Of a stretch of DNA of 45,453 bases, positions 7,620-44,206 are shown piece by piece. Below the pieces are notes generated by a model, which saw only the letters and a list, made by a program, of their open reading frames with translations, was not told the DNA's origin and searched no databases. Both the position numbers and the translations under genes were made by a program. This stretch comes from Deltaproteobacteria bacterium (GTDB taxonomy: Bacteria; Desulfobacterota; Binatia; UBA9968), in assembly GCA_016193465.1 (NCBI GenBank), contig JACPSE010000062.1:1-45453 (forward strand), in the 5' to 3' direction. How positions within the stretch are numbered: position 1 is the first letter of the stretch; each line of letters starts with the position of its first letter.

Positions 7620-7630
7620 GCCAGGTTCCC

Positions 7631-8599: not shown

Positions 8600-8600
8600 C

Positions 8601-11014: not shown

Positions 11015-11044
11015 TTTCGCACCCCCGTTCGAGAAGTCTTTCAA

Positions 11045-11482
11045 TTATTTGAGATGCCCTAAATGGCGCTGTTCCAAGTCTTCTTCAATCGCATTTAGAA
11101 TCTCCTCAATCGCAGTATTCCGAGAAAACGCGCATATGCCCCTCCGGCTCAATCGTTTCTGCATTTCGGGCCAATCATCAACCTGCAACGTCAGCATACC
11201 CCCTGCGTATACGGGTAAATTCGCAAAACCGGATTCCTGACATATGTCGGCCAGCTTGAGCAACTCTGTTTCCCCCATGCCACTTGAGTTGGCAACCAAC
11301 AGGGCATCTGCAGCAGTTTCTCGTGCCGCGGCAGCAAAGTCCTCGGGCGGAACCATCGTACCCAGATTCGCTACCTCGTGCCCACGACGTCGCAGGGCTT
11401 GCATCACTATAACCAATCCGTGTGAATGAATGTCATTCAAAACTCCGCCAACAAATATCCACTTCCGGTGCTGTGGGCTCAT
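11045..11482 (-). CDS. glmS: Glutamate mutase S subunit-like, cobalamin-binding
   Basis: This 145 aa B12-binding subunit has a Rossmann-like fold. The cobalamin motif DxHxxG appears as NDIHSHGLVIVMQALRRRGHEV near the N-terminus, where the His would replace dimethylbenzimidazole as the lower ligand. The second motif, VANSSGMGE, holds the nucleotide tail. I place the start at ATG 11482, which has GGGAG 7-8 bp upstream and begins 1 bp after the GlmL stop. A start at 11506 would overlap GlmL. The gap to GlmE is 30 bp. Symbol as used for glutamate mutase, not glucosamine-6-phosphate synthase. Confidence 0.85.
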   Translation of the reverse strand: MSPQHRKWIFVGGVLNDIHSHGLVIVMQALRRRGHEVANLGTMVPPEDFAAAARETAADALLVANSSGMGETELLKLADICQESGFANLPVYAGGMLTLQVDDWPEMQKRLSRRGICAFSRNTAIEEILNAIEEDLEQRHLGHLK

Positions 11483-11483
11483 T

Positions 11484-13044: not shown

Positions 13045-14169
13045 CTATTTTTCTGCCCGGGGAAATCCATAGGCCTCGACTATCTTTTTTGTCCACTGTT
13101 CTATATCTTGCTGCTGCTCCCAGCCCACAACGGAGAGCTTCTTCCCTCGGAGTGCCTGCTCCACCATGCCGCCAGGCACGTGGGCAGAAGAGGAGAAGGG
13201 TTCATGTTCGTCGTTTAGCCTCTGAGCCTCGGGGCTTGCCAACCATTCCAGCCAGAGAAGGGCAGCATGGGGATGCTGCGAGGTCGCCAAAATCGCCTGT
13301 AAATGGCCAAGTCTTACGGGCACAGGCTCGAGGATGACATACTGCAACACGCCAGTGCGGTCCTTTTTCTGGATCTCCCTGACGCTGGCGATATTAGGAC
13401 CCATGATCATTGGGATCTCCCCCGTCATAACGGGCACCAAGGTTCTAAGCGAACCGCGTACCCAGATCGGTTGCTGGGCGGCTATCTTTCGGGCAAAGTT
13501 CAGAGTCTTCTCCAAACCCCACGCCGGAACCAAGCCGGCAATATCCTTCGGTCGAATATCGACAGCAAACTTTCTCCCCTTAAATTCTGGCCTGAGGAGG
13601 TCTTCCCAAGTCTTTGGCAACAGGTCAGCCGGAACGAGTCCCGCGTTGTAGGCTGTGACTTGCATTTGGGTGGAAACCGCGAGGACGTTTCCATTTCTTG
13701 CATCGATCATAGCAGGTGGTATCTGTAGCGCTCCATGCTTGGCCATTCCAAGAAGATCGACCTTCCAAAGATACGGGGTATATTCGCCGTAAAAGTCAGC
13801 GAGGACATGGATGACGTCCCACTCCTTGGCCGCTCCGCTCTTAATCTCGAGCAGTAGTCGCTGGACTCCCTCCGTCCCTTTGCTCTCCTGGACATCGATG
13901 TCCATGAACGGGTATTTCTTTCTGAGGGCAGCAGTAGTGGCTCTGGCGGTGGAGGGCTCTATGCTTGCGGTAACGCGGAGTTTTCCCTCCTTTTTGGCTT
14001 TGGCAACAATTTCATCGCGGCTCGTCTCGAAGATAAAACCCTTGGCCTCCGCCTCCTTCTTGGCCTTTACCAAGGCCGGGCTTGGTGAGGCGGCAAGAGC
14101 GCTAGAACCAAACAGCCAGGACCATAAGACGACAATTACGGTGACCGTTCTGAAAAAATTTGACTTCAT
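13045..14169 (-). CDS. Iron-type ABC transporter substrate-binding protein (SBP family 1), paralogue A
   Basis: This 374 aa exported binding protein has a signal peptide MKSNFFRTVTVIVVLWSWLFGSSALA and AAGGAGGG as ribosome site. The mature N-terminus (LVKAKKEAEAKGFIFETSRDEIVAKAKKEGKLRV) is shared with the paralogues at 17667 and 22845, and the tail KKIVEAYGFPRA with three other paralogues here. The fold is that of Fe3+/polyamine/thiamine-type proteins (AfuA/PotD-like), where ligands range from iron to small organic acids. No permease gene of this class is adjacent, so it may feed the permeases at 27972 or 32380. Confidence 0.86.
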   Translation of the reverse strand: MKSNFFRTVTVIVVLWSWLFGSSALAASPSPALVKAKKEAEAKGFIFETSRDEIVAKAKKEGKLRVTASIEPSTARATTAALRKKYPFMDIDVQESKGTEGVQRLLLEIKSGAAKEWDVIHVLADFYGEYTPYLWKVDLLGMAKHGALQIPPAMIDARNGNVLAVSTQMQVTAYNAGLVPADLLPKTWEDLLRPEFKGRKFAVDIRPKDIAGLVPAWGLEKTLNFARKIAAQQPIWVRGSLRTLVPVMTGEIPMIMGPNIASVREIQKKDRTGVLQYVILEPVPVRLGHLQAILATSQHPHAALLWLEWLASPEAQRLNDEHEPFSSSAHVPGGMVEQALRGKKLSVVGWEQQQDIEQWTKKIVEAYGFPRAEK

Positions 14170-14364: not shown

Positions 14365-15537
14365 CTACGCATAGATCGAATCGGGCATCTCGAACTTGAC
14401 ACCCTCCCGCTTCAACGCCTCCTGATAGGCCTTTCGGATGTGAGGATCCTCGTCCCGATAGCTGAGCGCGTAGCCGCCTTCGTGAATCTCCTCCGAAACG
14501 CCTGCGATGTCATCATCGAGGTTACTCCACTCGACCCTTAGAACCCCCGAACGGGAGCCTCCCGTTATGTTGACCTGCCGCAGAGGGTCCTTGCCTACGC
14601 TGAAGTGCTGGTGGAACCAGTCACCCCCGCCCGGGGCCGCCCCTATCATACCCCCCGGGACGTACTCCTGCATCTTGACGAACTCTTCCTTGCCAGCCTC
14701 CCAAGGGCGAGCACCGAGTTCTTTCGGCCATGTATAGCTGTAACCCTTTCCACGCACGCAGACGAGCACTGCCCCAGAGGGGTGATAGTGGGCTTTAGAA
14801 TAGCGCCCGCTGGGGTACTCGGCAACGAATCCCTCGAAGTTAGTGTTGCCCGCCATGCGAAACCTGAAAAGTCGGAATCCCGGCCCTCGAGTGTTGTCCA
14901 ACGGGAGGTAACAGTGGACTACATCCGGTATGAGGTTGGTGCGCAGAAAAGCGTGACCTTTCTCCGGGTGGGGCTCGAAGTCTTCCCGGGGCTTGAAGTA
15001 ATCCTCGCGCTCGTAGTAAGGGTCGGTCCACTCGAACGGATTATCGAAGACAAAGCGCTCGTTCGGAAATAGGTTCAGGGTGATCGGTGCCGTGGTTACC
15101 CCCAGGACCAGGGCGGGGCTCGACGTGGCATTCACGAGCCGATGCCAGGTGTTCACCGGGATGGAAAACAAACTCCCTGGCTGCCACTCGAAGGCCTGCT
15201 TCCTGGCGCTGCCTTCCCTCCACACCTCGGTGGTGCCACGCCCCTCGACGATTAGAAAATTCTCCTCGTAGATGTGCCGCTCCGCATTCAGCGCCCCCCC
15301 GGCCGGCACTTCAACGACGTACATCCCCGTGCGCGCTCCAACACGATCGAGATGAATGAAACAGCCCTGTCCGCCCATGCGCTTCCAGGGCGCCAGTCCT
15401 AATTCCCTCACGTCGCGCACGCCGATGCCTCGCACAATTGGAATATTCTGCTCCTGCATGAATCTCTCGTAGCCACTGGGCTGGCGCCTGTAACGCCGAT
15501 GACCTGCGGTGGCATAACCTACCGGCTCCTCATACAT
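14365..15537 (-). CDS. Bicupin protein A (gentisate-dioxygenase-like fold)
   Basis: This 390 aa protein has two cupin domains. Domain 1 holds GGALNAERHIYEENFLIVEGRGTTEVW with GSLFSIPVNTWHRLVN. Domain 2 holds AHYHPSGAVLVCVRGKGYSYTW and the late GGDWFHQHFSVG. His and Glu residues fit a metal site in each domain. Family members include ring-cleaving dioxygenases and metal-dependent isomerases, so the reaction is open. It differs from the two bicupins at 18876-21133. It lies in the - strand run between partner 1 and binding protein A, with 195 bp of empty sequence downstream. Confidence 0.75.
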   Translation of the reverse strand: MYEEPVGYATAGHRRYRRQPSGYERFMQEQNIPIVRGIGVRDVRELGLAPWKRMGGQGCFIHLDRVGARTGMYVVEVPAGGALNAERHIYEENFLIVEGRGTTEVWREGSARKQAFEWQPGSLFSIPVNTWHRLVNATSSPALVLGVTTAPITLNLFPNERFVFDNPFEWTDPYYEREDYFKPREDFEPHPEKGHAFLRTNLIPDVVHCYLPLDNTRGPGFRLFRFRMAGNTNFEGFVAEYPSGRYSKAHYHPSGAVLVCVRGKGYSYTWPKELGARPWEAGKEEFVKMQEYVPGGMIGAAPGGGDWFHQHFSVGKDPLRQVNITGGSRSGVLRVEWSNLDDDIAGVSEEIHEGGYALSYRDEDPHIRKAYQEALKREGVKFEMPDSIYA

Positions 15538-15810: not shown

Positions 15811-16830
15811 TCACCCCATCATGATCTGTCGAGTCTGGTACCCACCGACCGCAATATAGACATCCTGCGGGCCAGGCCCACCCGCTACCGCCACATAAAT
15901 ATCGTCGGGCCTGGCGGTACGATGTATCACCTCCAGTCCGGCCTTGCCTGCACGTTGTTCCATCTCCACAAAGTCCCTGGCAAAGTAATCCACCGGCAGC
16001 GCTGCGCGCTCCCAAAGCCTCTCTTGAACATCACGTTTGGTCAAGCCAGCATTATGGAGCGCTTGGGCGTGATTGACCCCCAGGAGAACCAAGGCAGCAT
16101 CTCTGCCACCGCCATCCATCGGCGGCATCTGCGTGGCAATCTGCCTCAGAATGTCGTCGGGACCGACACCCATGCCACCTGAGATGTTAACGTAGTTGGT
16201 GGCCCGGAAGACCGTTACCGCGCTGTCACTCTTGCCAAAGCCCTTGTCAACATGGAAGGGAGTCCATGGATTTTCTTCCTCGTTTTCTCCACAGACATAG
16301 GTATAACGCAGCGGAGATCCAAAGCTAGCCATGGAGTACACGCCGGGAATAGCACCTCCGACATTCTGCATGATGAGACGGATAGCGCGGCCGATAGTCG
16401 CATTGGCGCGCCATCCCGGTCCCAAACAACCAGTGGCGCAGTTTATGTCGAGCTGCTTCCTGACCGGCCCATTTATCAAAAGGAAGGGGGTACTCGGGGC
16501 CGTGGTCACCTGCATCACGTTCAAACGAAAGGCCGGATCGGCAATCCCATCGAGTGCAGCGATAACCACCGGCATGTATTCAGGGCGACAGCCGGCCATC
16601 ACCGCGTTTATGGCTACTACCTCTACGGTGGCTCGGCCACTGCGCGGGGGAAGAATGGCTATGCTGTCGTTGGCCTTACGGCCAGACGCCTGGACAAACT
16701 GCTCCACCATCTCTTTTGTCGGAGGCACAACAGGAAGGCCGTCCGTCCAACCCTGGTCGTAGAAATACTCATATGTTTTAAGCAGGGCTTGCGCCACTGA
16801 CCCCGCCTCAATTTGTACACCGGCCGCCAT
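15811..16830 (-). CDS. UGSC partner protein 1 (unknown function)
   Basis: This 339 aa protein is one of three paralogues in the window, each next to a UGSC selenoprotein gene. Shared motifs are GWTDGLPVVPPT (residues 27-38), INAVMAGC (74-81), GWRANATIGRA (139-149), NVGG (156-159) and a Cys followed by GENEEENPW (180-189). Cys81 and Cys180 occur in all three copies and are candidates for catalysis or for a link to selenocysteine. There is no signal peptide or membrane segment, so it is cytoplasmic. Its ATG overlaps the TGA of selenoprotein 1 (TGATG at 16828-16832), which implies coupled translation and probably one complex. I do not know a function for the family. Confidence 0.85.
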   Translation of the reverse strand: MAAGVQIEAGSVAQALLKTYEYFYDQGWTDGLPVVPPTKEMVEQFVQASGRKANDSIAILPPRSGRATVEVVAINAVMAGCRPEYMPVVIAALDGIADPAFRLNVMQVTTAPSTPFLLINGPVRKQLDINCATGCLGPGWRANATIGRAIRLIMQNVGGAIPGVYSMASFGSPLRYTYVCGENEEENPWTPFHVDKGFGKSDSAVTVFRATNYVNISGGMGVGPDDILRQIATQMPPMDGGGRDAALVLLGVNHAQALHNAGLTKRDVQERLWERAALPVDYFARDFVEMEQRAGKAGLEVIHRTARPDDIYVAVAGGPGPQDVYIAVGGYQTRQIMMG

Positions 16831-17414
16831 CAGCTACGCCTCCGCACGATTTCCTCGGGTGAGGCTGTCAGACCCCAGACGATGGTCTCCAGCATCTGTT
16901 CGGCCCGCTGCCGGAGCGAAGCTCTGTCCAAATTGCGGATGGGGTTGGGCGTCTCTGCCGTAGCTATATGCGGGCAGCCTTTGATCCTTGCCTGGAGGCG
17001 GCCAAAGCCATTGAAGGCATCAGTGGTGATCATCACTGTTGGCACCCCCCTCTTCTCCAGTTCAACTGTCACGTGGCTACACCACGTGGTGCACGACCCT
17101 CAGTCGCCTGTTCCGGTGATGACTACGTCTGCTCGTTGTGCCATCTCATCAGCAAACGACTCAACGAACTCCTCCCATTTCCTGCGCTCCCCGTGAAGTG
17201 CCTGCTTCTGCACCAACTCCTTGAGTCCATACCTATTCTGGAGCAGCTCCCCCACCGTGTCCAATAGCTCCGCCGCCGATGGACGCCAATTAGCTACTAA
17301 TCCCACGGTCAAATTCTCCAGCGACTGCGGTCTCGGCGCCAGAAGCGTCACCTCCTTCTCCACATATTCCGGTACCGGGGTTAGCACCAAAAATCCTAGT
17401 CTATCTTCTGCCAT
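16830..17414 (-). CDS. UGSC-family selenoprotein 1 (in-frame TGA = selenocysteine)
   Basis: Two - strand frames join through TGA 17100-17102 into one 194 aa protein that reads VVITGTGD-U-GSCTTWCSH. Sec is residue 105. The downstream part (VELEKRGVPTVMITTDAF) keeps the family pattern seen in the other two copies, so the TGA is not a decayed end. A perfect hairpin starts 11 nt after it. I recall this as the UGSC (seleno)protein family; its reaction is not established. The Sec-Gly-Ser-Cys motif could form a selenenylsulfide. The start is ATG 17414, with GGAGG at 17424-17428. Ordinary gene calling would stop at the TGA or start after it. Confidence 0.88.
17070..17088 (-). promoter_or_regulatory. 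Putative SECIS hairpin for UGSC selenoprotein 1
   Basis: Read on the - strand, an 11-nt spacer after the TGA leads into CACGUGG, loop UGUAG, CCACGUG: seven perfect pairs, with G at the second loop position. This matches the known bacterial rule of a stem about 11 nt after UGA with a G among the first two loop bases. It would bind SelB. Confidence 0.8.
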
Positions 17415-17423
17415 CGACGCTGC

Positions 17424-17428
17424 CTCCT
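17424..17428 (-). promoter_or_regulatory. Ribosome binding site that sets the UGSC1 start
   Basis: GGAGG on the - strand lies 9 bases from ATG 17414. The upstream in-frame ATG at 17432 would place this site inside the gene, so 17414 is preferred. Confidence 0.7.
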
Positions 17429-17469
17429 TCATTATTCGCTCGACCGCACCTACAAACCGTAATGGTAGC

Positions 17470-17666: not shown

Positions 17667-18794
17667 ATGAAAATGCATTTTTTCAAGTCTCTTGGTTTAG
17701 CGTTTTTAATGGCGATTTGGGCAGTGGATGAAGCTTCTACTGCGGCGTCGAGCCCTAACCTGCTCAAGGCGAAGCAGGAGGCTGAGGCGAAAGGCTACAC
17801 CTTCATCACGAGCCACGATGAAGTGGTCGCCAAGGCCAAAAAGGAGGGAAGACTCCGCGTTACCACAACTCTTGAACCCACTACGGTAAAGGAGTTGACA
17901 AAAGCCTTCAAGGCAGAGTATCCGTTCCTGGACATTAACGTTGAGGAGATCACAGGCCCCGAGGCCCAACAACGCTTTATCCTTGAGATAAAAGCAGGTG
18001 CAGGGAAGCAGTGGGATGCTACTGTGTTGCACGACGATTTCTATAACGAATATTTACCGCTCTTAAAAAAGATCGACACTCTAGGGATGGCAACGCATGG
18101 AGTAGTGCAGATCCCAACGCAGGTTGTGGACTCCGAGAGCAGGGCGGTAGTGTCTGCGGGAACCAGTCTACAAGTCATAGCATACAATGAGAAGCTGGTT
18201 GCGGCCGACAGGGTGCCCAATGCTTGGGAGGATTTCCTGAAGCCCCAGTTCAAGGGAAAGAAGTTTTTAGTTGATGTTCGCCCGCAGGAGGTGGCTGCCT
18301 TGGTGCCCGCCTGGGGCTTGGAAAAAACCCTGGATTTCGCACGGAGAATAGGTGCCCAACAACCCGTGTGGATTCGGGGGGCGACACGGATGCTTACAGC
18401 AATGGTTGCCGGGGAGTACGGGCTATTCATTGGTCCTAACCTTCACACTGTCTTGGAGGCTATAAGGAAACACCCCACTGGAAACCTTGCATATAAATTT
18501 TTGGAGCCTATACCAACGCGGTCGCGAGAAAATGTTGGAATCCTTAATACGGCTGAGCATCCCTATGCTGCCCTCCTATGGCTGGAATTCGAGAGCTCTC
18601 CAAGGGGCCAAAAGATACTGGATGAGTTTGAGCCCTATGGGGCATCCGTGCTTATCCCTGGCTCTAAGCAGGAAGGGCTGGCAAGGGGCAGAAAGCTGTC
18701 TGTGGTTAGGGGTTCCGACCTACATAGGATGACGGAGTGGGTGGCAAAGGTCGTGGAAGCCTATGGCTTCCCTAAGGCGGAGAGGACAAAATAA
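17667..18794 (+). CDS. Iron-type ABC transporter substrate-binding protein (SBP family 1), paralogue B
   Basis: This 375 aa exported protein has a signal peptide MKMHFFKSLGLAFLMAIWAVDEASTAA and GGGAGG upstream of the ATG. The mature N-terminus LLKAKQEAEAKGYTFITSHDEVVAKAKKEGRLRV and the tail VVEAYGFPKAE are shared with paralogues A and C, so all three descend from recent duplications. The signal peptide is almost that of paralogue C (22845). It is followed on the same strand by two bicupin genes, with an 81-bp gap that holds the GGAGG of the next gene. Ligand unknown. Confidence 0.86.
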   Translation: MKMHFFKSLGLAFLMAIWAVDEASTAASSPNLLKAKQEAEAKGYTFITSHDEVVAKAKKEGRLRVTTTLEPTTVKELTKAFKAEYPFLDINVEEITGPEAQQRFILEIKAGAGKQWDATVLHDDFYNEYLPLLKKIDTLGMATHGVVQIPTQVVDSESRAVVSAGTSLQVIAYNEKLVAADRVPNAWEDFLKPQFKGKKFLVDVRPQEVAALVPAWGLEKTLDFARRIGAQQPVWIRGATRMLTAMVAGEYGLFIGPNLHTVLEAIRKHPTGNLAYKFLEPIPTRSRENVGILNTAEHPYAALLWLEFESSPRGQKILDEFEPYGASVLIPGSKQEGLARGRKLSVVRGSDLHRMTEWVAKVVEAYGFPKAERTK

Positions 18795-18875: not shown

Positions 18876-20009
18876 ATGTTGGAGCCCTGGAGAGAAGTTC
18901 AAGAGGTTTCGGACCGTTTGAAGCGGTTTGTGTATCAGGATCAGGAGGATTTTTTAGCACGGTCCTTACCGCACGTCGTCAAGCAGTTGCCGATGAAGCC
19001 GACGGTGATGGGCATGGACAGCCCGCACCAGACCGGGCATCATGTCTGTTACGACATGCTGACGCGGGGACCGCTCTATGGCATGACGAGCCATTTTACC
19101 CGGGTCGCGCCCAATGCGCCTGTTCGAGGCGTGCACCGCCATATCAGGGCGCCTGCGCTTTTCTGTATCAACGGGAAGGGTTGGGAATGGAACGACGGGG
19201 AAACCTACCTTTTTGAAACCTACGACCTCCTCATCATACCACCCTATACCATGCACCAGCATGGGTCAGACAAGGAAATAGGATGCACGATCTATGTTCC
19301 GGAAACAGGCCGGATGGGCCATCTTTTGGGGTTGATGTACCGCGAGCAGCACAAGCTGAGCGAGAAGCCAACCTTTCCTGAGGGAACAGAGCCGATCTAT
19401 GGCGATGAGGGAAAGCTGCTGGGCTACCGGATCAAGAAAGGAGTGCTTGGGATCACCAAGGATATTGAGGTGATCCTCGGCACAGAGCCGAATCGGGAGG
19501 CTACTTTTCAGGCGCGTCGCTCGGCACGCGGATGGAAAGCCCCTGTGGAGGACACTAATGACCGGTACTTGAAACTCATGCATGACGAGGCGGAATTTTG
19601 TCGTAAGGTGGACCACGTTGCCCGCGACGCTGAAGAGCCTTGGGAGTGGACCCGCCAGGGGAAACTGAAGTGGATGGTGCACCCGGATACAGAGACCGCC
19701 ACCAATGGTGTGTGGATTTATTTTCACGAGATTCCAACGGGGAGCCGCTCGGGAAAGCACCGCCATGTGTCTGAAGAGCTAATTTTAGTCCTGGAGGGGC
19801 ACGGGTATGACCTTCACGACGGCGAGCGGTGGGACTGGGAGCAGGGTGATCTCATCTGTGTCCCGTCGATGACGGTCCATCAGCATTTCAATTTGGGAGA
19901 GGATCGAGCGCTGTTGCTCAGCTCGATGCCGAGTTTCTACATGAATCTGGGGTTGGGCGGGATTGAACAACTTGAGGACGCACCTGAATTTATGCAGGAA
20001 GGGAGGTAA
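18876..20009 (+). CDS. Bicupin protein B (gentisate-dioxygenase-like)
   Basis: This 377 aa protein has two cupin domains with good metal motifs. Domain 1 is GVHRHIRAPALFCINGKGWEWNDGE with IIPPYTMHQH. Domain 2 is GKHRHVSEELILVLEGHGYDLHDGE with CVPSMTVHQHFN. The HxH...E...H pattern fits Fe(II) or Mn(II). Gentisate, salicylate and 1-hydroxy-2-naphthoate dioxygenases share this layout, but no aromatic pathway genes are near. It is 5 bp upstream of its paralogue bicupin C, so the two may form a heteromer. Confidence 0.8.
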   Translation: MLEPWREVQEVSDRLKRFVYQDQEDFLARSLPHVVKQLPMKPTVMGMDSPHQTGHHVCYDMLTRGPLYGMTSHFTRVAPNAPVRGVHRHIRAPALFCINGKGWEWNDGETYLFETYDLLIIPPYTMHQHGSDKEIGCTIYVPETGRMGHLLGLMYREQHKLSEKPTFPEGTEPIYGDEGKLLGYRIKKGVLGITKDIEVILGTEPNREATFQARRSARGWKAPVEDTNDRYLKLMHDEAEFCRKVDHVARDAEEPWEWTRQGKLKWMVHPDTETATNGVWIYFHEIPTGSRSGKHRHVSEELILVLEGHGYDLHDGERWDWEQGDLICVPSMTVHQHFNLGEDRALLLSSMPSFYMNLGLGGIEQLEDAPEFMQEGR

Positions 20010-20014
20010 GGATC

Positions 20015-21133
20015 ATGGCGGAACAAGAACGCGTGAAGGAACGCTTGCGCCAGGACGAAATAGATCCGAAGCTTTACTATGATTATGAGACTCCCTTCAT
20101 CAAGCAGAAGCTCGAGCGCGAGCGGATGGACATGCTGCCCCGCGTCGTCAAGCCCGCCATGTTTGCGAAGGGTGGACATGCGCTGGGAGACTTGCGGGTC
20201 TTTGAGCGTTATACGGTTGCCCCGATCAGCTCAATGACTTGTAACTTTCTAGAGGTGGCGGCTGGGGACCGGACCGAGAAGCAGCGGATGATCCCCTCGA
20301 CGATCGCTTATATTCTTGAGGGAAGCGGGGAGTGCGTGCAGGATGGGACCAGCTATTCTTTTACCGCGGAAGACGTGGTTGTGATTCCACCGTATACCAC
20401 CCATCAATTTGTGGCAGATGCTCGACGTGGGTTTCGCGCCTGGGTGCCCCAGGCACGGTTCTGGCACGTGCTGGGGCTGTTGTGGCAGGAGAATTTTGAG
20501 TTCAAGAGCATACCCGAAGGGACGGAGCCGATCCGTGATAGCCACGGCCAGCTTGTTGGGTTTCGCGTACCCCGGGGGACTCTTGGGTTGGAGCGGGACC
20601 TCGATGTACGCGTTGGTGCCGATACAAAGCGGGAGGGGGTTTTTCAGGCGCGTCGGGCGGTGCGCCAGAAACCTGAAGGCAAGACTAAATACGACTGCTT
20701 TTTACGTCGCCTTGCCGAGGATAACGAGCTTGAGGAGAAAGGACCGAGGGTGATTCGGAGAACAGAACGGCTCTGGGAAAATACCAGGCAAGGGCGGCTG
20801 AAGTTTTATATCCACTTTTGGACCGAGGTGGCGGCCCGCGCACTAGATCTGATGGCTGTCGAGATAGAGCCCGGGGGCCATGCGGGCAAGCACCGGCACA
20901 TTTTCGAGGAGTTGATTCTGGTCGCGGCAGGCAAGGGGTACGATACGCATGAAGAAACGCGCTACCCATGGGAGGCCGGGGATCTGATCTGTATCCCGCC
21001 TATGACGGCGCATCAGCATTTCAACGACGGCAATGGGATGGCGCGTCTCATCTCGGTCTGGCCACGCCAGTTAGCTCATGATTTCCTCGGCGGGGTCGAA
21101 CAGATCAGCGATGCCTCAAGCTGGAAGAGGTAG
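20015..21133 (+). CDS. Bicupin protein C
   Basis: This 372 aa paralogue of bicupin B has the same order of domains and the same C-terminal metal motif (GKHRHIFEELILVAAGKGYDTHEE, CIPPMTAHQHFN). In the N-terminal cupin the HRH of bicupin B is replaced (RTEKQRMIPSTIAYILEGSGE), leaving only the late THQF histidine. That half is probably non-catalytic. A catalytic/structural pairing with bicupin B is therefore plausible. The 73 bp after its stop are empty and separate it from the convergent UGSC selenoprotein 2. Confidence 0.8.
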   Translation: MAEQERVKERLRQDEIDPKLYYDYETPFIKQKLERERMDMLPRVVKPAMFAKGGHALGDLRVFERYTVAPISSMTCNFLEVAAGDRTEKQRMIPSTIAYILEGSGECVQDGTSYSFTAEDVVVIPPYTTHQFVADARRGFRAWVPQARFWHVLGLLWQENFEFKSIPEGTEPIRDSHGQLVGFRVPRGTLGLERDLDVRVGADTKREGVFQARRAVRQKPEGKTKYDCFLRRLAEDNELEEKGPRVIRRTERLWENTRQGRLKFYIHFWTEVAARALDLMAVEIEPGGHAGKHRHIFEELILVAAGKGYDTHEETRYPWEAGDLICIPPMTAHQHFNDGNGMARLISVWPRQLAHDFLGGVEQISDASSWKR

Positions 21134-21206: not shown

Positions 21207-21755
21207 TCACCTTGAGAGGCCAAGGATCCGTCGTACCTGGGCAGCGGCGACCTCGACCCTCTGGCGAAGCTCTTCGTCGGAGAGGCTGATCATGGGATGC
21301 GCCACTACGGCAAAGGGATAGTCGGGAATACCCGCCGACCGGGCCATAGTCTTGGCTGCGTGAACGAAGGGTTCGGTCACCACAACGGCTGAGGGCTTAC
21401 CTCGTCTCTCTAGCTCCAGGGAATCGTGCACACTGCACGAACTGCAAGACCCTCAGTCGCCTATGGCGTTGATTACCACGTCGGATTCCGCCGCCAGTTC
21501 GTCCAGCATCTCTTTTGTGGCTATCCGCCACGCCGTCGGTTTTCTTCTGACCACAACCCCCGCAATCTTATGGTCCTTCTTCAACTCCAGCACAATCCCG
21601 TCCAGGAGGGCCCTGGCTAGAACCTTGCTGCTGTCTAGCAGACCTACAACCTTGCCGTCTAGCGTGCCTGGCCGCGCCGCCAAGGTCAGGCCGCGCGCCA
21701 CCGGCCCGGCAGTGGGGTCTAGCACCCGAAGGGATGTTTTAACGAATGTAGCCAT
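21207..21755 (-). CDS. UGSC-family selenoprotein 2 (in-frame TGA = selenocysteine)
   Basis: The frames on either side of TGA 21453-21455 join into a 182 aa protein with VVINAIGD-U-GSCSSCSVHDSLELERRGKPSAVVVTEPF. Sec is residue 101. The N-terminal half has the family pattern LDGKVVGLLDSSK...VLARALL. ATG 21755 has AGGAG about 8 bp upstream. A perfect 7-bp hairpin follows 12 nt after the TGA. It comes 24 bp after partner 2, so here the order is partner then selenoprotein, the reverse of the other two cassettes. It is the last gene of the run that contains EtfBA and the thioredoxin-reductase-like protein. Confidence 0.88.
21424..21440 (-). promoter_or_regulatory. Putative SECIS hairpin for UGSC selenoprotein 2
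   Basis: On the - strand, 12 nt after the TGA, UCGUGCA pairs perfectly with UGCACGA around a GUG loop (7 bp, 17 nt in total). The first loop base is G. The hairpin centre is 21 nt from the TGA, the same distance as in selenoproteins 1 and 3. Confidence 0.8.
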
Positions 21756-21779: not shown

Positions 21780-22826
21780 TTACAGCCTTTTGATCTCTCG
21801 CGTTACCGACCTGGAGGCTACGCCGGCGCGCCACGGAGGGATGAAGACAGACGTTGGACCGGCGGCTCCTCCTCCGGCAAGAACGAATAGGTCTTCAACT
21901 CGGTCAAGAAGCTGCCACACTGCCTCAGGGTCGTGGGCACCAGCGGTGTGCGGACTAGCCCCCAGACCACCCAAGCGCATGAACTCTGCGGCCTTCCGCC
22001 TAGCCTTTTCGTAGATGAAATGTCTGATTCTGTCCTTGGTCCAGCCTCCACGCGCCAGGATGTTCATGTGCTGCTGGCCTATGATGAGCACCCATTCACA
22101 ATGCCAGTGGAATACTCCCGGCGAACTCATGATATAAGCAAAGGCGTTAAGGATATCCTCCGGATTAGAGGACCCGCTGCTCGCATGGTGCGGGCCTTCG
22201 GCAGCGAAGACCGTTACTGTGCTAGCCTGTTTCGGGTACCCCATTTCCACGTGCAATGGTATCCAGGGGCTGTTCTCTTCGTTTTCCGCAATGCAATAAG
22301 TGTACTTCCCTGGGTGACCGAAGGTAGCGTTGTCCAGCACCACAGGGATACAGCCCCCCACGTTTGTCAGCAGCAGACGGATAGCCCGCCCTATCGTAGC
22401 GTTGGAGCGGTAGCCTGGTCCAAAGAGACTGACACCCCAGTTCATGCCCAACTCCTTCGCTATGGGGCCGTTAACCACCAGGAGCGGTGTAGTGTTGCCA
22501 GTGGTGGCGGTGCTGCCATGCAAATTGAATTTCGGCTCCGTCATGGCTTCCACTGCTGCCACCAAGACTGGCATGTACTCTGGTAAACATCCCGCCATCA
22601 CCGCGTTGATGGCCAGTTTCTCCAAGCTGAACTCCCGATGACGCTCTGGAATGGTACCCAGGATCTCCTTGGGAGAGCGGCCCGAGGCTTCGACAAATTC
22701 AGCCACCCGCGCGGGTGTCGGAGGAACTACCGGCAGCCCGTCCGTCCAACCCTTTTCATAGTACAACTCGATAGCCGCAAAGGCATCATCCACTTCGAGT
22801 TCAGGAGACGATAGAATCGTGGCCAT
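21780..22826 (-). CDS. UGSC partner protein 2 (unknown function)
   Basis: This 348 aa paralogue of partners 1 and 3 shares GWTDGLPVVPPT, INAVMAGC, GPGYRSNATIGRA, NVGG and KYTYC...ENEE, and ends in REIKRL. It keeps the two universal cysteines (in AVMAGC and KYTYC) but lacks the extra pair present in the other copies (NWGVSLFGPG instead of NCxxxCFG), so those two are dispensable. There is no signal peptide. ATG 22826 has AGGAGG upstream. It stands directly between binding protein C and selenoprotein 2. Confidence 0.85.
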   Translation of the reverse strand: MATILSSPELEVDDAFAAIELYYEKGWTDGLPVVPPTPARVAEFVEASGRSPKEILGTIPERHREFSLEKLAINAVMAGCLPEYMPVLVAAVEAMTEPKFNLHGSTATTGNTTPLLVVNGPIAKELGMNWGVSLFGPGYRSNATIGRAIRLLLTNVGGCIPVVLDNATFGHPGKYTYCIAENEENSPWIPLHVEMGYPKQASTVTVFAAEGPHHASSGSSNPEDILNAFAYIMSSPGVFHWHCEWVLIIGQQHMNILARGGWTKDRIRHFIYEKARRKAAEFMRLGGLGASPHTAGAHDPEAVWQLLDRVEDLFVLAGGGAAGPTSVFIPPWRAGVASRSVTREIKRL

Positions 22827-23995: not shown

Positions 23996-24931
23996 TCAAG
24001 ATTTCAGCCCACTGAGATACCGGTGGGCCGCAACCGCGGCAGTGACACCGTCGCCCGCGGCCGAAGCCAACTGGCCTACTGAAGACTTGCGTGCGTACCC
24101 CACCGCATAGATACCAGGAACAGACGTCTGCATATTGAGATCGACCGGAACATGCCCCATGGCGTCTAGCTCCACCAGCCCTTTCAAAAAAGCCGTGCTG
24201 GGCTCAAAGCCTACACAGGTAAATACCCCCGCTACAGCTACGAGAGAAGAGCTTTGGGCCTTAAGATCGTGCACACGGATTGCCTCCACACAACCCTTCC
24301 CAGTAATCTCCTCAAGGACCGAATCCAAAAGCAAGTCGATTTTAGGATTTCCTCTGGCCCGCTCTTGAAGAGTCTCGCTCGCTCTGAGACGGCCCCTGCG
24401 GTGAATAATCGTAACTTTTGACGCAAACTGAGTTAAGAAAAGTCCCTCATCGAGAGCAGTGTCACCGCCACCAACAACAGCCACCGGTTTTTCGACAAAG
24501 AAGGCCCCATCGCAAGTGGCACAATGGGAAACCCCCTTCCCTTCAAACTCCGCCTCTCCCTTTGCACCGAGAGCGCGATGCGCTCCGCCAGCGGCGACAA
24601 TAACTGCTTTCGCTTCGTAAGCCTCCTCGTTTGTTTGCACCAGCCTATTCTCACCCGACACTCTTATTGCCCTTGCCTCCTGATAAGTAGACTCCATGCC
24701 AAACTTCATAGCCTGAAGCTCGGTCTGGGCAACCAAATCAGCGCCCTGAATCCCATCGGGAAAGCCCGGAAAATTCTCGATCTTGTCCGCATTGATGATC
24801 TCTCCTCCAATCACCTCACGCTCAAGCAAGAGAACACGATGTCCCAACCAACTTCCATAGAGCGCTGCGCTCAAGCCTGCCATACCGCCGCCCACGATGA
24901 CGATATCGTACCGTTTCACCGTTCCACCCAC
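23996..24931 (-). CDS. Thioredoxin-reductase-like FAD/NAD(P) flavoprotein
   Basis: This 311 aa protein of the TrxB class would transfer electrons from NAD(P)H through FAD to a redox-active disulfide. Visible are the FAD motif VGGGMAGLSAALYG, the active-site CATC in SHCATCDGAFF, the NADPH motif GGGDTALDEGLFL and the tail GQLASAAGDGVTAAVAAHRYL. In the FAD-binding motif near residue 280, usually AAGD, it reads AVGY, so the aspartate that contacts FAD is a tyrosine. The start is GTG 24931, or GTG 24919 with GGTGG upstream. Placed between EtfA and the UGSC2 genes, it is a candidate electron donor for the selenoprotein. Confidence 0.88.
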   Translation of the reverse strand: MGGTVKRYDIVIVGGGMAGLSAALYGSWLGHRVLLLEREVIGGEIINADKIENFPGFPDGIQGADLVAQTELQAMKFGMESTYQEARAIRVSGENRLVQTNEEAYEAKAVIVAAGGAHRALGAKGEAEFEGKGVSHCATCDGAFFVEKPVAVVGGGDTALDEGLFLTQFASKVTIIHRRGRLRASETLQERARGNPKIDLLLDSVLEEITGKGCVEAIRVHDLKAQSSSLVAVAGVFTCVGFEPSTAFLKGLVELDAMGHVPVDLNMQTSVPGIYAVGYARKSSVGQLASAAGDGVTAAVAAHRYLSGLKS

Positions 24932-38765: not shown

Positions 38766-39242
38766 CTAAACGCCGAGGATTCCACCCGGCAAGGATACGC
38801 CTAAAAGAACCCTAAAAATAAGAGCGAAAGTCGCTGGTAGGAATACTGAGGTCATCAAAATTGCTCGAAGGGATAGGTGATCACGCTCCAGCACATATGT
38901 TACGCTGAAGACTAACAAACCATAGGAGAGAAGGAAGCCCAGGATATCGAAGAGAAAAACACTCCCTGTTAGCATTAGTAATACTGTAAGGACCCGTCCG
39001 CCGCCTTGAAGATCTACTGCTCGGCGAACATCAGGCATGTCTTCGCGGTTTCGTCCAATAAAGGTTTGAGTCAAAAGAGCAAAAGACACCAAAAGCATGC
39101 ATATGCCGAGCCATGTTGGTAAAAATCCCGGCCCAGGACCATACTCCATTGTATATGGGAACCGAACATGGGACTCAACAAGAACGTAAGCACCAATCAA
39201 GATGAAAATAATAGCAACTACCCTGTTAACACGTCTTGTCAT
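38766..39242 (-). CDS. tctB: Tripartite tricarboxylate transporter small membrane subunit
   Basis: This 158 aa TctB-type protein has four membrane segments: RVVAIIFILIGAYVLVES near the start, LGICMLLVSFALLTQTF, VLTVLLMLTGSVFLFDILGFLLSYGLLVF and ILMTSVFLPATFALIFRVLLGV. The YGPGPGFLPTWLG motif after helix 1 is characteristic. It is separated from TctA by the UGSC3 cassette, although TctB normally directly adjoins TctA. Confidence 0.9.
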   Translation of the reverse strand: MTRRVNRVVAIIFILIGAYVLVESHVRFPYTMEYGPGPGFLPTWLGICMLLVSFALLTQTFIGRNREDMPDVRRAVDLQGGGRVLTVLLMLTGSVFLFDILGFLLSYGLLVFSVTYVLERDHLSLRAILMTSVFLPATFALIFRVLLGVSLPGGILGV

Positions 39243-39286
39243 GCTGCTTCTTCTTGTGAGTTGTGGATAGTTTTCTTTAAATGGCC

Positions 39287-40351
39287 TCAGCGCTTAATTT
39301 CGCGGGTTACTGAACGAGACATCCCATATGGCGGAATAACCAGACAATGAACACCCGGCCCTCCTGCAACTAAAATGATAAAGTCCTCCGGTCTCTCCGC
39401 AGCTGGCACCAAACAGCTGTCATCTGTTATGTCGATCCATTTGGGCCACTGAGGAGTTGGCCAACCACCGCCACGTTTGAGTTTACCAACTGGCTGGCGG
39501 GCGCGGTCAAATAAATAACCACGAATATCCTTCTTCGTCCAACCTGAGTTGTAAAGCAAAGCTGCCGGCTCTGGGCTAATGACAATCATTGTTTCCGTAG
39601 TGAAGATCATCGAATGGCTACCTTTCGGCACAATGCTATCCACTACAGTTTCTAACAATAGTTCTGGAGTACTCGGCGTGCGACACATCGCGTTATGGGG
39701 CGCTTCAGCGGCAAAGACCGTCACGGTGCTTGCGTCCTTAGAAAAACCTCGCTCAACGTGTAGAGACTCCCAGGGGTTTTCTTCCTCATTTTCTCCCACG
39801 CAATACGTGTATTTGGCCGGAGTTCCGAATGTCGACAAGTCCCCCATGTTTGTTGGAGACGCTCCTCCTACATTGACCATAATCAAGCGCACCGCACGTC
39901 CTATGGTGGCATTGGCCCGCCAACCTTGGCCGAAACAATTAGCCCCACAGTTAATCTCGATCTCATGCCGAATAGGTCCGTTTAGCACAATAAGGGGGGC
40001 AGAACTGTGCGTCGTGACCTGAACAGCATTCAAATTAAAAGAACCGTCTAGCATGCCCTCTACTGCCGCCACCACAACCGGCATATACTCCGGTTTACAA
40101 CCGGCCATAACTGCGTTAATAGCTATTTTTTCCAGAGTTAGTCGACCGTACTTAGGCGGCATTAGCCCAATTTCTTCCTGCGGATCACGGCTTATATAAT
40201 CCAGCATTGCCGCGACCTTGTCTTCGGTCGGTGGAATAATGGGAAGGCCGTCAGTCCATTGATGCTGAAGGTAGTACTCGTAGATAGCGTCCAGTGACCG
40301 TAAGGAGTCGTCAAACTCTGCAGCCACTGAAGAAAAACTTTTAGATCTCAT
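39287..40351 (-). CDS. UGSC partner protein 3 (unknown function)
   Basis: This 354 aa paralogue of partners 1 and 2 has HQWTDGLPIIPPT, INAVMAGCKPEYMPVVVAA, NCGANCFGQGWRANATIGRA, NVGG, KYTYCVGENEEENPW and a terminal REIKR. Its ATG overlaps the TGA stop of selenoprotein 3 (ATGA at 40348-40351), giving coupled translation as in cassette 1. It retains the NCxxxC pair found in partner 1 but missing in partner 2. TctB follows after 44 bp. Confidence 0.85.
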   Translation of the reverse strand: MRSKSFSSVAAEFDDSLRSLDAIYEYYLQHQWTDGLPIIPPTEDKVAAMLDYISRDPQEEIGLMPPKYGRLTLEKIAINAVMAGCKPEYMPVVVAAVEGMLDGSFNLNAVQVTTHSSAPLIVLNGPIRHEIEINCGANCFGQGWRANATIGRAVRLIMVNVGGASPTNMGDLSTFGTPAKYTYCVGENEEENPWESLHVERGFSKDASTVTVFAAEAPHNAMCRTPSTPELLLETVVDSIVPKGSHSMIFTTETMIVISPEPAALLYNSGWTKKDIRGYLFDRARQPVGKLKRGGGWPTPQWPKWIDITDDSCLVPAAERPEDFIILVAGGPGVHCLVIPPYGMSRSVTREIKR

Positions 40352-40926
40352 GTTCCACCCCTCACCGCTGTAGATCGGGATTCCCCTGTCTGCATCGTAA
40401 TACCAGCGATGATGTCTTTTAGTGACTCATCGGCTAAGCTCTTTATCTGCTCCACTGACTTTGTGTAAATAGGGTGAGGTATGACGACGATGGGCAAATC
40501 TGTTAGCCCGAACTCGCGCGCTAATCTCCTTCCAGCTTCAACAAAGCACGTCGTGGTAATCGTGATTGTCGGAACGCCGGACTTCTCAAGAGCAATACTA
40601 TCGTGGAAACTCCACGAGGTGTTACCAGCTCAATCGGCTATGCCATTTATAACCGCGTCGCATTTTACCAGATCACCCATGGTATCCCCAGGCACTCCTC
40701 GAGCGGGCGTCTGTTTGCGGAACTTAAAGAATCTGGCAATTCTGAATTGCTCTGCAAGCAACTCCTGAACCCTAGCCAAAAAAACGTCAGAGTTAGCTTT
40801 AGAATTATCGAGTAGTCCGATAGCTTTACCGTCCAGGGCGCTCAGACGGTTTGCTAAGACAGCCTTCTGGATGTTTCTTGGCGAAGTAGGATCAAGAACG
40901 CGAATCTTCCTTTTTAGAGATTCCAT
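40348..40926 (-). CDS. UGSC-type selenoprotein 3, variant motif U-A-G-N
   Basis: Frames on both sides of TGA 40630-40632 join into a 192 aa protein: CDAVINGIAD-U-AGNTSWSFHDSIALEKSGVPTITITTTCF. Sec is residue 99. The N-terminal half has LDGKAIGLLDNSKANSDVFLARV, close to selenoprotein 2. The residues after Sec are AGN instead of GSC, so the presumed resolving cysteine is lost and chemistry or reducing partner may differ. ATG 40926 has AGGAGG upstream. A hairpin at the same distance as in the other copies supports recoding. It lies 61 bp after TctA. Confidence 0.85.
40601..40617 (-). promoter_or_regulatory. Putative SECIS hairpin for UGSC selenoprotein 3
   Basis: On the - strand, 12 nt after the TGA, UCGUGG pairs with CCACGA. 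The flanking A-U may close a seventh pair, leaving loop GUU. The first or second loop base is G. The hairpin centre is 21 nt from the TGA, as in selenoproteins 1 and 2. Confidence 0.78.
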
Positions 40927-40987
40927 TGCTAGCCCTCCTTTTTAAATGATTGTAGTCGTTCAATGCGGAAGTTTCAAACTAATGAAT

Positions 40988-42496
40988 CTATCCCTGTAGG
41001 TACGATACTCGGTTTCCGGTTAAGTGCTTGACGACGCACAAGGCAAGAGCCGACAGACATGCAGTTATCAGAAGAGCTATAGATATGGGCCGCTCGACAA
41101 AAATGGCAATGCTACCGTGTGACATAATCATACTCTGACGTAGGGATACCTCCATTAGAGGGCCCAAGACTAATCCGAGAACCATAGGAGCAGCAGCCAT
41201 CCCAATCTTTCGCATCAGGTAACCTAAGACGCTGAAACCAACTAGCAGCCAGAGATCGAACAAAGACCCCTTGAAGCTGTAGACACCGACCACCGAAAGC
41301 CCCATCACTGCTGTATACAAGACATAATATGGCACTCGTAATATGCTCGCAAATAAAGGAACTAATGGGAGGTTCAGTATAACCAGCATCACGTTGCCTA
41401 TGTACATACTAGCAATTAGAGGCCAAACAAATTCAGGGTGCTCTTGAAAAAGCATGGGACCCGGTTTCAGCCCCCACATCAAGAACGCTCCAAGCATTAT
41501 GGCAGCAGCTCCAGATCCAGGTATTCCCAAGGTAAGCAAGGGTACCATTGCGCCACCGCACTCCGAATTGTTTGCCCCTTCAGGAGCCGCTACTCCCTCT
41601 ATGGCTCCATTCCCAAACTTCTCCGGATGGCGAGATACGGCACGTTCCAAGCCGTAGGATAAAATCGAAGCGACGGTCGATCCTGCACCGGGTAGAACGC
41701 CAACGATGAAGCCGACAATAGACCCGTTGAGAAATGCAAATCGACATGCTTTTAAATCCTCCCAGGAAGGAAATAACTCACGAAGCCGATTAGGAACCGT
41801 AAAGACCTGAACGCCGGACTCCTCCTCCAAATTGGCGAGGACTTCCGCAACCGCAAAAAGACCGATGCTAGCCACGACAAAGTCAATGCCGTCCGCTAAA
41901 TATACTTGGCCATAAGTAAAACGCGGTAGAGCTGTAAAAAGGTCAATACCGATTGTTGCAAAAAACAATCCTGTCAACCCACTTAAAAGCCCTTTCCATA
42001 TAGATTCACCCGTCAAAAAAACCATTAATAACAATCCCAGAAGCATGAGTATAAAATACTCGGGGGGGCCAAAACGGACGGAGAAAACGGCTATGGGGGG
42101 GGCGATAAGGGTAAGTAGAAGGACCCCGAATGTTCCCGCTATGAAAGAAGAAATAGCAGCGATGCCCAATGCCGGCCCAGCACGCCCTTCGCGAGCCATA
42201 GCATAGCCATCTAAGCAAGTTATAACTGAAGCGGACTCCCCTGGCGTGTTCAACAAAATGGATGTAGTTGAGCCGCCATATTTCGCTCCATAATAGATGC
42301 CGGCCAACATGATAATTCCAGTCGTTGGGTTCATGCTGTATGTCAGGGGAAGGAGCATAGCTAGTGCGCCAGAGGGACCGATGCCAGGCAAGATTCCCAC
42401 TACTGTTCCCAATACGACACCAACAAAGCACCAGAAAAAATTTACTGGAGACATTGCTATAATAAAGCCAGATATTAGGTTCTCGAATAAAGTCAT
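40988..42496 (-). CDS. tctA: Tripartite tricarboxylate transporter large membrane subunit
   Basis: This 502 aa TctA-type permease has about 12 membrane segments. The signature stretch GTVVGILPGIGPSGALAMLLPLTYSMNPTTGIIMLAGIYYGAKYGGSTTSILLNTPGE (residues about 30-86) is intact, and a second GVLPGAGSTVASILSYGLERAVS repeats the pattern in the middle. It imports carboxylates with an ion gradient, using TctC as the binding protein. The start ATG 42496 has only a weak ribosome site. The 175 bp upstream hold no gene. Confidence 0.94.
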   Translation of the reverse strand: MTLFENLISGFIIAMSPVNFFWCFVGVVLGTVVGILPGIGPSGALAMLLPLTYSMNPTTGIIMLAGIYYGAKYGGSTTSILLNTPGESASVITCLDGYAMAREGRAGPALGIAAISSFIAGTFGVLLLTLIAPPIAVFSVRFGPPEYFILMLLGLLLMVFLTGESIWKGLLSGLTGLFFATIGIDLFTALPRFTYGQVYLADGIDFVVASIGLFAVAEVLANLEEESGVQVFTVPNRLRELFPSWEDLKACRFAFLNGSIVGFIVGVLPGAGSTVASILSYGLERAVSRHPEKFGNGAIEGVAAPEGANNSECGGAMVPLLTLGIPGSGAAAIMLGAFLMWGLKPGPMLFQEHPEFVWPLIASMYIGNVMLVILNLPLVPLFASILRVPYYVLYTAVMGLSVVGVYSFKGSLFDLWLLVGFSVLGYLMRKIGMAAAPMVLGLVLGPLMEVSLRQSMIMSHGSIAIFVERPISIALLITACLSALALCVVKHLTGNRVSYLQG

Positions 42497-42671
42497 TTAT
42501 TTAACATCCGCTCGGCGCAGCCTGTGAATTAAAGTCTTTCTCAGGCATCCGGGGAACAGTGGATTTCTTGGTATTGACCACGACGTGAGAATTCTGGCAG
42601 AAGTGTCTTCACTGACATACCTCTGGTTAGTTGTTGCTCACTCAAAATCGCTGAGGGCTCAGGGGAGAGAC

Positions 42672-43088
42672 CTAAGGTTTTTTGCTTTTGAGCGCGGCTA
42701 AGGTTTCAGGGTCGTGGTCTTGAGCCAGTCCTAATCCGTTTGCTGCCGCGCTACATCCGGAAAAATATGCCAACACGCCCAAAGCTTCTACAATCGCCCC
42801 GTCGCTTATACCCTTTTTCTTTAGCCTAGCGGTATGGGCATAGATAGAAAACTGATTGTTAGTTAATACCAAGGCAGCGAACACCAGCCATTGTTTTGTC
42901 ATATCGTCTAGATGACCAGGCGCCATTAACCGTTTTCTTGCAGACCAGAGGGCATCAAGCACCTCCGGATTATTTGACAGAGCTACATAAAAGTTTGGCA
43001 CAAAGCCAAGCGTTTTCCGAAGCTCTGAGAAGATCATCCTAACACGCTTATCATTCGGCTCATCCCTTCTCAGCTGAACCGTTGCCAT
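42672..43088 (-). CDS. Carboxymuconolactone decarboxylase/AhpD-like protein lacking CxxC
   Basis: This 138 aa all-helical protein of the CMD/AhpD family has VRMIFSELRKTLGFVPNFYVALSNNPEVLDALW, the active-site region LVLTNNQFSIYAHTARLKKKGISDGAIVEALGVLAYF and a short tail. In redox-active members the region reads NCxxCxxxH. Here it is NNQFSIYAH, so both cysteines are missing while the His remains. It is therefore not a disulfide peroxidase and may act as a decarboxylase- or hydrolase-type member. ATG 43088 has GGAGG 8 bp upstream. It lies between TctC and TctA. Confidence 0.82.
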   Translation of the reverse strand: MATVQLRRDEPNDKRVRMIFSELRKTLGFVPNFYVALSNNPEVLDALWSARKRLMAPGHLDDMTKQWLVFAALVLTNNQFSIYAHTARLKKKGISDGAIVEALGVLAYFSGCSAAANGLGLAQDHDPETLAALKSKKP

Positions 43089-43192
43089 TATAGGACCTCC
43101 TTGAGCAGAATAATTTCACCGGCAAATCCAAATGCCTCTGACGGTGCCTAGGCTAGTCGCGTGACATATCTAGTTCAAGATATCCAAGCTCA

Positions 43193-44206
43193 CTAGCCAG
43201 GTTTTTTAATCATGCCGCTTTCAGTCATTATTTTATGCATTGTTTCAAACTGTTCGTCCAAGAACTTCCTCAGCTCGCCCCCTTGCAGAAAGCCTTCTGT
43301 GAGCCCATTATCCTTCAAAAATTTACGCCATCTCGCTGCCTTAGAAAGTCTACTCATCGCGTCCACCCAGTAGTTCAGTACCTGATTTGATATCCCAGGC
43401 GGCGCAACTATACCACGCGACGTAACCAGCAAGGGTATGTTGATTCCTGCTTCTTTAATCGTTGGCACTTCAGGGATCTCATCCTGCCGTTCATCAGTCA
43501 AAGAGCAGATGATCCGCATCTTCCCCGCGCGCACATATTCACTTACTTCATTTGTCTGCGCCAGATAAAGATCAGCATTACCACCAAGAATGGCCGCGAT
43601 GCGTTCACCTCCTCCCGCGGCCGGAATATAGTCCCACTTGGCTCCTGTCGCGTTCATGATTAAGAATCGAAAGATATTGTCCACGGAAGTTACCGACCCA
43701 CCAATCTGTCTCAATTTATTTGGTTGGGCTTTAGCGGTCTCGACTAAATCTTTTATGGTTTTAAATGGGGAGGCACTATTCACCGCAATGACAGCGGGCT
43801 CGGTAATAAGGCGGGCGATGGGGGTAAGGTCCTTGAGACTAACTTTCAGGTCTGGACTGGACACAGCGGCCCCAATCCATGTCGTTGTCCATTGTGCCAA
43901 AAAATGGTCATTTCCCTTCTGCGTCGTCATATAGGTCTGTAAAACAGCACTGCTCCCCCCCGGTTTGTAGAGCTGTTGAATATTCAGTTCGGCCGGGGTA
44001 ATTTTCTCCTGCTTAAGGATCTCAATCATATTTCTTAGTAGGTGGTCAGCACTCGTGCCCGGATTTCCATGATTGCCAAGCTGCACCACCTTGGACGGTT
44101 TCCACGATGATTGAGCCAAAACATTTCCATGAAACGTTAATAGGCTTAGTCCAAACAGCAATGCGGCTAACCGTATAGCTCCCATTGAATTCCCCGACCT
44201 TTGCAT
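43193..44206 (-). CDS. tctC: Tripartite tricarboxylate transporter binding protein (Bug/TctC)
   Basis: This 337 aa exported binding protein has signal peptide MGAIRLAALLFGLSLLTFHGNVLAQ with an N-terminal extension, and AGGAGG upstream of ATG 44206. Family segments include KVVQLGNHGNPGTSADHLLRNMIEI, the YKPGGSSAVLQTY loop, DLTPIARLITEPAVIAVNSASPFKTIKDLVE and PEVPTIKEAGINIPLLVTSRGIVAPPGI. Ligands of this family are mostly carboxylates. It is the upstream TTT gene, followed by an AhpD-like gene and TctA. Confidence 0.92.
   Translation of the reverse strand: MQRSGNSMGAIRLAALLFGLSLLTFHGNVLAQSSWKPSKVVQLGNHGNPGTSADHLLRNMIEILKQEKITPAELNIQQLYKPGGSSAVLQTYMTTQKGNDHFLAQWTTTWIGAAVSSPDLKVSLKDLTPIARLITEPAVIAVNSASPFKTIKDLVETAKAQPNKLRQIGGSVTSVDNIFRFLIMNATGAKWDYIPAAGGGERIAAILGGNADLYLAQTNEVSEYVRAGKMRIICSLTDERQDEIPEVPTIKEAGINIPLLVTSRGIVAPPGISNQVLNYWVDAMSRLSKAARWRKFLKDNGLTEGFLQGGELRKFLDEQFETMHKIMTESGMIKKPG

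Follow-up and report, generated by a model that had tools for sequence, protein, structure and literature searches.

The window analyzed here (the whole stretch of 45,453 nucleotides, contig JACPSE010000062.1 of assembly GCA_016193465.1, Deltaproteobacteria bacterium) carries three genes of the UGSC family, each with an in-frame TGA and each beside a gene for a partner protein. UGSC copy 1 (16830..17414) lies on the minus strand, which the preliminary description of the locus had left unstated, and its frame from 17414 to 16830 yields 194 residues provided that selenocysteine (Sec, U) is inserted at the TGA at 17102-17100. Counted from the start at 17414, this is residue 105; the translation reads ...MAEDRLGF...ITGTGD-U-GSCTTW...RRRS, with family matches on both flanks of the codon (17100..17102, minus strand) and a TGA at the same place in relatives. 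A Shine-Dalgarno-like AAGGAGG (17423..17429, minus strand) sits 8 nt before the ATG at 17414, and the A that closes the stop codon is also the first base of the ATG of the partner gene (TGATG), which occupies 15811..16830 on the minus strand and encodes 339 residues. This ∼340-residue partner matched no Pfam or NCBIfam family over cut-off.

Copy 1 scored 156.5 bits against the Pfam UGSC family PF24696 (gathering cut-off 25). When the halves before and after the TGA were searched apart they scored 58.9 and 76.4 bits, respectively, covering profile positions 2-92 and 94-171 and thus adjoining at 92/94; separate matches of this kind indicate that the frame on either side of the TGA is more than chance. 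The earlier claim that family-conserved sequence continues across the TGA (ITGTGD-U-GSCTTW) is borne out by these matches, and UGSC is, as also stated there, a recognized but functionally uncharacterized family. Against the NCBIfam equivalog NF041046, copy 1 reached 109.2 bits, 15.8 under the curated cut-off of 125, and for this reason it is assigned to the Pfam family alone (copy 2: 127.6 bits; copy 3: 118.3 bits). With an in-frame UGA and family sequence on either side of it, copy 1 almost certainly encodes a selenoprotein, and is very probably a gene of a known, uncharacterized selenoprotein family, new in detail and not in kind.

UGSC copy 2 (21207..21755, minus strand; motif UGSCSSC, Sec codon 21453-21455) has its partner gene upstream (21780..22826, minus strand), and its PF24696 halves also adjoin at 92/94. 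Copy 3 (40348..40926, minus strand; Sec codon 40630-40632, halves adjoining at 92/97) has the motif UAGN, in which Sec is kept and Cys lost, and overlaps the start of its adjoining partner gene (39287..40351, minus strand) by ATGA. Around copy 3 (38766..44206, all minus strand) lie tripartite tricarboxylate transporter genes for TctB (38766-39242), TctA (40988-42496) and TctC (43193-44206), with a carboxymuconolactone decarboxylase-family gene among them (42672-43088). Near copy 2 are electron-transfer flavoprotein genes and a thioredoxin-reductase-like gene (23996..24931, minus strand; TIGR01292, 326.9 bits against a cut-off of 343.45).

Elsewhere in the window, three similar solute-binding proteins (13045-14169, 17667-18794 and 22845-23957) are interleaved with the UGSC pairs, which suggests repeated duplication of one transport-enzyme module. 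Three cupin proteins also lie between the pairs (14365-15537, 18876-20009 and 20015-21133), two of them weakly similar to aminosalicylate or gentisate dioxygenases. Three methylaspartate (glutamate) mutase-like genes (MutE-like, B12-binding small subunit and MutL) occupy 9581-12911, and an open reading frame at 30964-32370 gave a strong but sub-threshold match (284 of 700 bits) to the lasso peptide Trp epimerase MslH model.

Hairpin and selenocysteine machinery

The perfect 7-bp hairpin reported 11 nt past the TGA of copy 1 was located exactly there (17070..17088, minus strand), as CACGTGG (17088-17082), loop TGTAG and CCACGTG (17076-17070), with a further U-G pair. A small apical loop with a G, as here, is a feature of bacterial SECIS elements (PMC1088965). 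By itself this hairpin is not significant and is unremarkable given the protein: all seven pairs occurred in 13.7% of 1000 synonymous recodings, 25.6% of 1000 were equally stable in folding, and 9.4% of 2000 had a stem of equal length. It is jointly over the 11 TGA paralogues of the source genome, and by covariation, that a SECIS signal is found: the summed minimum free energy was -187.7 against -138.4 ± 10.1 in recodings (reached by 0/1000) and the summed longest stem was 83 against 49.7 ± 4.9 (0/2000), with one paralogue (C35:11487) having a stem of only 3 by the latter measure.

Covariation was assessed in 32 distinct sequences out of 40 read, with 500 shuffles and slid versions of the hairpin as controls. 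Paired cells amounted to 90.2% (78.4% in shuffled alignments) and double changes to 22 (8.1 in shuffled alignments), neither value being equaled in any of the 500 shuffles, bearing in mind that kinship among sequences can push covariation above shuffles without any structure; slid versions paired at most 46.9% of cells. Two weaker measures, pairs with a double change and pair types, were as high in 22 and 17 of 500 shuffles, so that the hairpin exceeds the controls on three of five measures and is less clear on two.

The preliminary description had named a genome without selenocysteine machinery as grounds for rejecting the selenoprotein, and within the source assembly this objection has not been cleared: profile searches of the assembly, rated 100% complete, found no selA, selB, selD or tRNA-Sec. 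The best SelA score was 18.7 bits. The best match to SelD proved to be ThiL, and the best two of seven SelB matches EF-Tu and IF-2 (the other five scored ≤64.5 bits). Of ten tRNA-Sec candidates, nine were identified as tRNAs for Ser, Leu, Cys, Gly or Tyr, and one scored 32.2 bits. No tRNA with a UCA anticodon was found either, ARAGORN recovering only one Asp and one Leu tRNA among 43 pattern hits. As a separate observation, thiL in the source genome (G000 C162, locus L080) is directly followed by a gene encoding LarB, a nickel-pincer cofactor protein.

Among 58 genomes (the source and its relatives), selA was over cut-off in 51 and tRNA-Sec over the gathering score in 45, 41 of the latter at ≥66 bits (matches of lower score can be Ser tRNAs). 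Genomes of the same genus had selA over cut-off in three of three cases and tRNA-Sec in two of three. One of them (G003) carries selA, selB, selD and selC within positions 5764-10528 of a single 12.7-kb contig, another (G002) carries selA-selB-selD on a contig of 5.2 kb that stops short of selC, and in the third (G001) the set is split across contigs of 5.2 and 6.4 kb. Because the sel genes lie within ∼5 kb in these relatives, one gap could remove all four, and a single assembly or binning gap is the likely, if not proven, reason that they are missing. Searched against the source genome, the 12.7-kb stretch gave a single long match, to a ParE/Phd-YefM toxin-antitoxin cassette close to the end of a contig, and otherwise matches of ≤77 bits, a result compatible with either loss or non-assembly of the cluster. 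That cassette (G000 C197:19766-20376) is 80% identical to positions 10545-11159 of locus L064, beside the relative's selC.

Paralogues, relatives and the partner protein

The source genome contains 12 matches to NF041046, of which 11 have one in-frame TGA and the remaining one is truncated where its contig ends. Summed over the per-genome table, the 58 genomes gave 114 UGSC matches in 45 genomes, 111 of them with exactly one TGA. The three without comprise two fragments at contig ends, which do not include the site, and a Cys form in a genome rated 100% complete (G041), where TGC takes the place of the Sec codon. This genome has no selA match, its best tRNA-Sec match is a tRNA-Ser, and the stem of its UGSC gene, at 5, is not clearly longer than the mean of 4.4 in recodings.

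All 40 copies read through in the source and related genomes have TGA at the Sec site. Named genomes were also scanned with the Sec column blanked and the best 80 of at least 541 relatives were kept; TGA stood at the site in 80/80 of these loci, whose record titles include Candidatus Binatia, Deltaproteobacteria, Chloroflexi, Dehalococcoidia, SAR202, Betaproteobacteria, SAR324 and Nitrospinota. Homologues that truly end at this position, which would have spoken against the gene as first described, were found neither among the 40 copies nor among the 80 named loci, the frame continuing in each. In 25 genomes of its family, copy 1 had no close orthologue; the best matches were paralogues from the same genome (35-36% identity), and all listed matches carried a TGA except one contig-end fragment. 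Two UGSC ends in the source genome (G000 C211:3954-4166 and C35:11487-11879) are near-identical, from either recent duplication or strain variants split by the assembly.

The Cys three residues after Sec is present in 38/40 copies read in the source and related genomes, and is gone from two of the 11 TGA copies of the source genome (UAGN in copy 3 and UGTS elsewhere), in both of which the UGA is kept. The scan of named genomes is uninformative on the frequency of this loss as its pattern included the Cys. Loss of the Cys with the UGA retained suggests that the essential residue is Sec and not a Sec-Cys pair, and it weakens the earlier proposal that Sec105 and the next Cys form a joint site.

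Among the best 80 of at least 541 named loci, the partner was fused to UGSC in 23 and started within 473 bases downstream in 53 (76/80 together). One further locus had it 2 kb downstream, and in three it was not found. In two of these three a contig end falls within some 420 bases of the site, leaving one real miss (L132). In the source genome, the partner was adjacent or fused in 10 of 11 TGA copies, the remaining copy (C35:11487) having none within the 6 kb examined. A natural UGSC-partner fusion was modeled with high scores (pLDDT 94.4, pTM 0.93). The known UGSC family (PF24696, NF041046 and the Global Ocean Sampling survey of 2008) agrees with what is seen here in sequence family, Sec motif, SECIS and the occurrence of partner fusions, and the survey's Unknown_1 fusion is probably to the same partner as here (PMC2398784). 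Compared with that family as known, the source genome is distinguished by its 11 TGA copies, two with lost Cys.

Probable relation to GrdB and predicted fold

Profile comparison (hhalign) of 17 UGSC sequences with five GrdB-like proteins of relatives gave a probability of 95.7 (E = 9 × 10−9, 86 columns), aligning Sec on Sec and continuing to the end, and involving the second half of UGSC only. The five were those of 24 fetched loci in which a motif search found a Sec site. A second UGSC set, headed by the copy 1 protein, gave a probability of 94.8; with the Sec column blanked and six closer UGSC rows, it dropped to 57.9 (E = 1 × 10−4). As controls, UGSC against a GrdE-like profile had a probability of 4.4, yet an E of 0.009, and the comparison with the partner 0.1. 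In a single-sequence scan against TIGR01917, 8/17 UGSC members matched at E ≤0.1, the best being copy 1 (7 × 10−4). UGSC appears from these profiles to be related to GrdB through a homologous Sec-bearing end, the similarity weakening when the Sec column is blanked and the number of rows reduced.

Like UGSC, GrdB (PF07355, TIGR01917) has UG(S/T)C on the same columns with similar sequence to the end, a steady second protein, and many paralogues in some relatives. UGSC differs in having no counterpart of the N-terminal part of GrdB and in falling far below the family cut-off (TIGR01917: 18.6 of 602.2 bits), and PF07355 had no match in the source genome. The pairing of GrdB with GrdE is not copied either, given that the partner profile bore no resemblance to four GrdE-like proteins (probability 0.2; one confirmed as PF09338-type). 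D-proline reductase PrdB (TIGR04483) likewise shares the Sec motif and gave a weak profile match (E = 0.0045), whereas UGSC lies far under its cut-off (16.4 of 300 bits). GrdB-like proteins are numerous in some relatives (e.g., G010/L084, L096, L105 and L106), with up to 20 matches to PF07355 in one. In five GrdB-like loci of relatives the frame continues beyond an internal TGA that forms part of a UG(S/T)C motif, and several such loci include GrdE-like proteins, with one confirmed PF09338 beside PF07355.

In the copy 1 model (pLDDT 92.6) a strand followed by a helix recurs five times before a final helix, and Sec105 falls between the strand at 97-103 and the helix at 106-121. The predicted fold appears flavodoxin-like rather than thioredoxin-like as suggested in 2008, when the survey described UGSC as a UxxC protein of no domain and likely thioredoxin-like fold (PMC2398784). 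Structure searches with the UGSC domain (Foldseek, VIA-align) returned only common alpha/beta folds, and absence of a fold from such lists excludes none; PDB sequence searches with the UGSC and partner profiles gave best E values of 0.095 and 0.13.

Proposed working and alternatives

Under the working we propose, UGA105 would be decoded as Sec by SelA-SelB-SelC-SelD, guided by the hairpin just downstream, and a small flavodoxin-like domain would present the Sec at the turn between its third strand and the next helix. UGSC would act together with the ∼340-residue product of the gene that follows, to which it is fused in other copies; the partner may bind the substrate, each paralogue pair serving its own. 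By kinship with the Sec end of GrdB and PrdB, the selenolate would attack a polarized carbon of a small substrate, from which a leaving group would be displaced; thiols would then reset the Se-bound product or the oxidized Sec, perhaps via the thioredoxin-reductase-like protein near copy 2, a possible electron donor. The substrate would probably be a carboxylate imported by a neighboring transporter, and the Tct operon around copy 3 is counted in support of this. TctC receptors were also the commonest of 100 families among near neighbors of UGSC loci (24 of 148 open reading frames, the two nearest per locus, drawn from 539 with the last few loci left out). Such receptors occur in very large numbers in Betaproteobacteria, a group that makes up much of the sample, and their count is therefore weak support.

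The attack of Sec on a carbon of a small acid bound to the partner is proposed by analogy with the glycine, D-proline and fluoroacetate reductases. In the first two, a bond between the Se of Sec and a substrate carbon is thought to be formed and then broken by thiols (PMC10298544). For fluoroacetate, a GrdB-type pair (farB/farE of Synergistota, with a transporter in the operon) has been proposed to cleave the C-F bond, its Sec protein attacking the substrate carbon (PMC10838667); farB/farE belongs to GrdB/GrdE proper, unlike UGSC, and the parallel is one of mechanism only. We put GrdB-like chemistry at about even chances, and the reading as a whole, in which the UGSC selenoprotein and its partner form a two-part, substrate-specific reductase with Sec attacking the substrate, could equally prove right or wrong. 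Computed support for it comes from the family, the conserved UGA, the hairpin, the partner linkage, the predicted fold and the GrdB profile similarity; Sec decoding in the source species, the chemistry, the substrate class, the electron donor and the role of the partner are what we infer.

That UGSC is instead an ordinary thiol/selenol oxidoreductase, with Sec and the Cys three residues on as a UxxC redox pair, was the assumption of the 2008 survey, which classes it as UxxC and likely Trx-like (PMC2398784). The near-constant Cys (38/40 copies) and the nearby thioredoxin-reductase-like gene fit this view, but it sits poorly with the two of 11 source-genome copies that lose the Cys and keep the UGA, with the flavodoxin-like strand-helix order of the model, and with the tight linkage to one partner and a carboxylate transporter operon, which favor a substrate-specific enzyme; we consider it unlikely, at perhaps one chance in a few.

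Much less probable are explanations in which selenium plays no part. Read-through of the UGA by another tRNA or with another amino acid in the source organism would accord with the failure to find selA, selB, selD, tRNA-Sec or a UCA-anticodon tRNA in the assembly, but relatives equipped with the Sec machinery have TGA at these same sites, the hairpin is retained over 11 paralogues, and one ∼5-kb gap would take out all four sel genes; such read-through is very improbable. The idea that the TGA is a true stop, leaving a short protein and a remnant, has in its favor that a plain open reading frame listing ends the frame there (17432..17100). It is scarcely credible given that the TGA is common to many relatives, and a true stop or pseudogene was ruled out by the strong family match of the post-TGA half by itself and by a frame that ends exactly on the start of the next gene.

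Returning to the two-part reductase, we tentatively suggest, at somewhat less than even chances, that UGSC and its partner represent a new branch of reductive C-X lyases that depend on Sec, in which a smaller relative of the GrdB Sec domain is combined with another kind of substrate subunit. Such enzymes would form in Binatia, SAR202/Chloroflexota and Betaproteobacteria a substrate-specific set (11 genes here) for carboxylates delivered via Tct or ABC transporters. In the 2008 ocean survey UGSC ranked fifth by number among selenoprotein families (PMC2398784), and the published passages on UGSC examined here, that survey's among them, assign it no function. In the open-access literature we found nothing pairing UGSC with SAR202, Binatota with a selenoprotein, or a UGSC selenoprotein with Burkholderiales. 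What is new here, relative to that literature, is the profile link between UGSC and GrdB (which may be published elsewhere), the flavodoxin-like predicted fold and the steady partner. Plain gene calling would halve such genes, eleven of them in the source genome. Together with the paralogue set, the GrdB link, fold and partner make the function of the UGSC family testable, and with the link and the steady partner what was an unnamed redox protein can be tested as an enzyme of two components.
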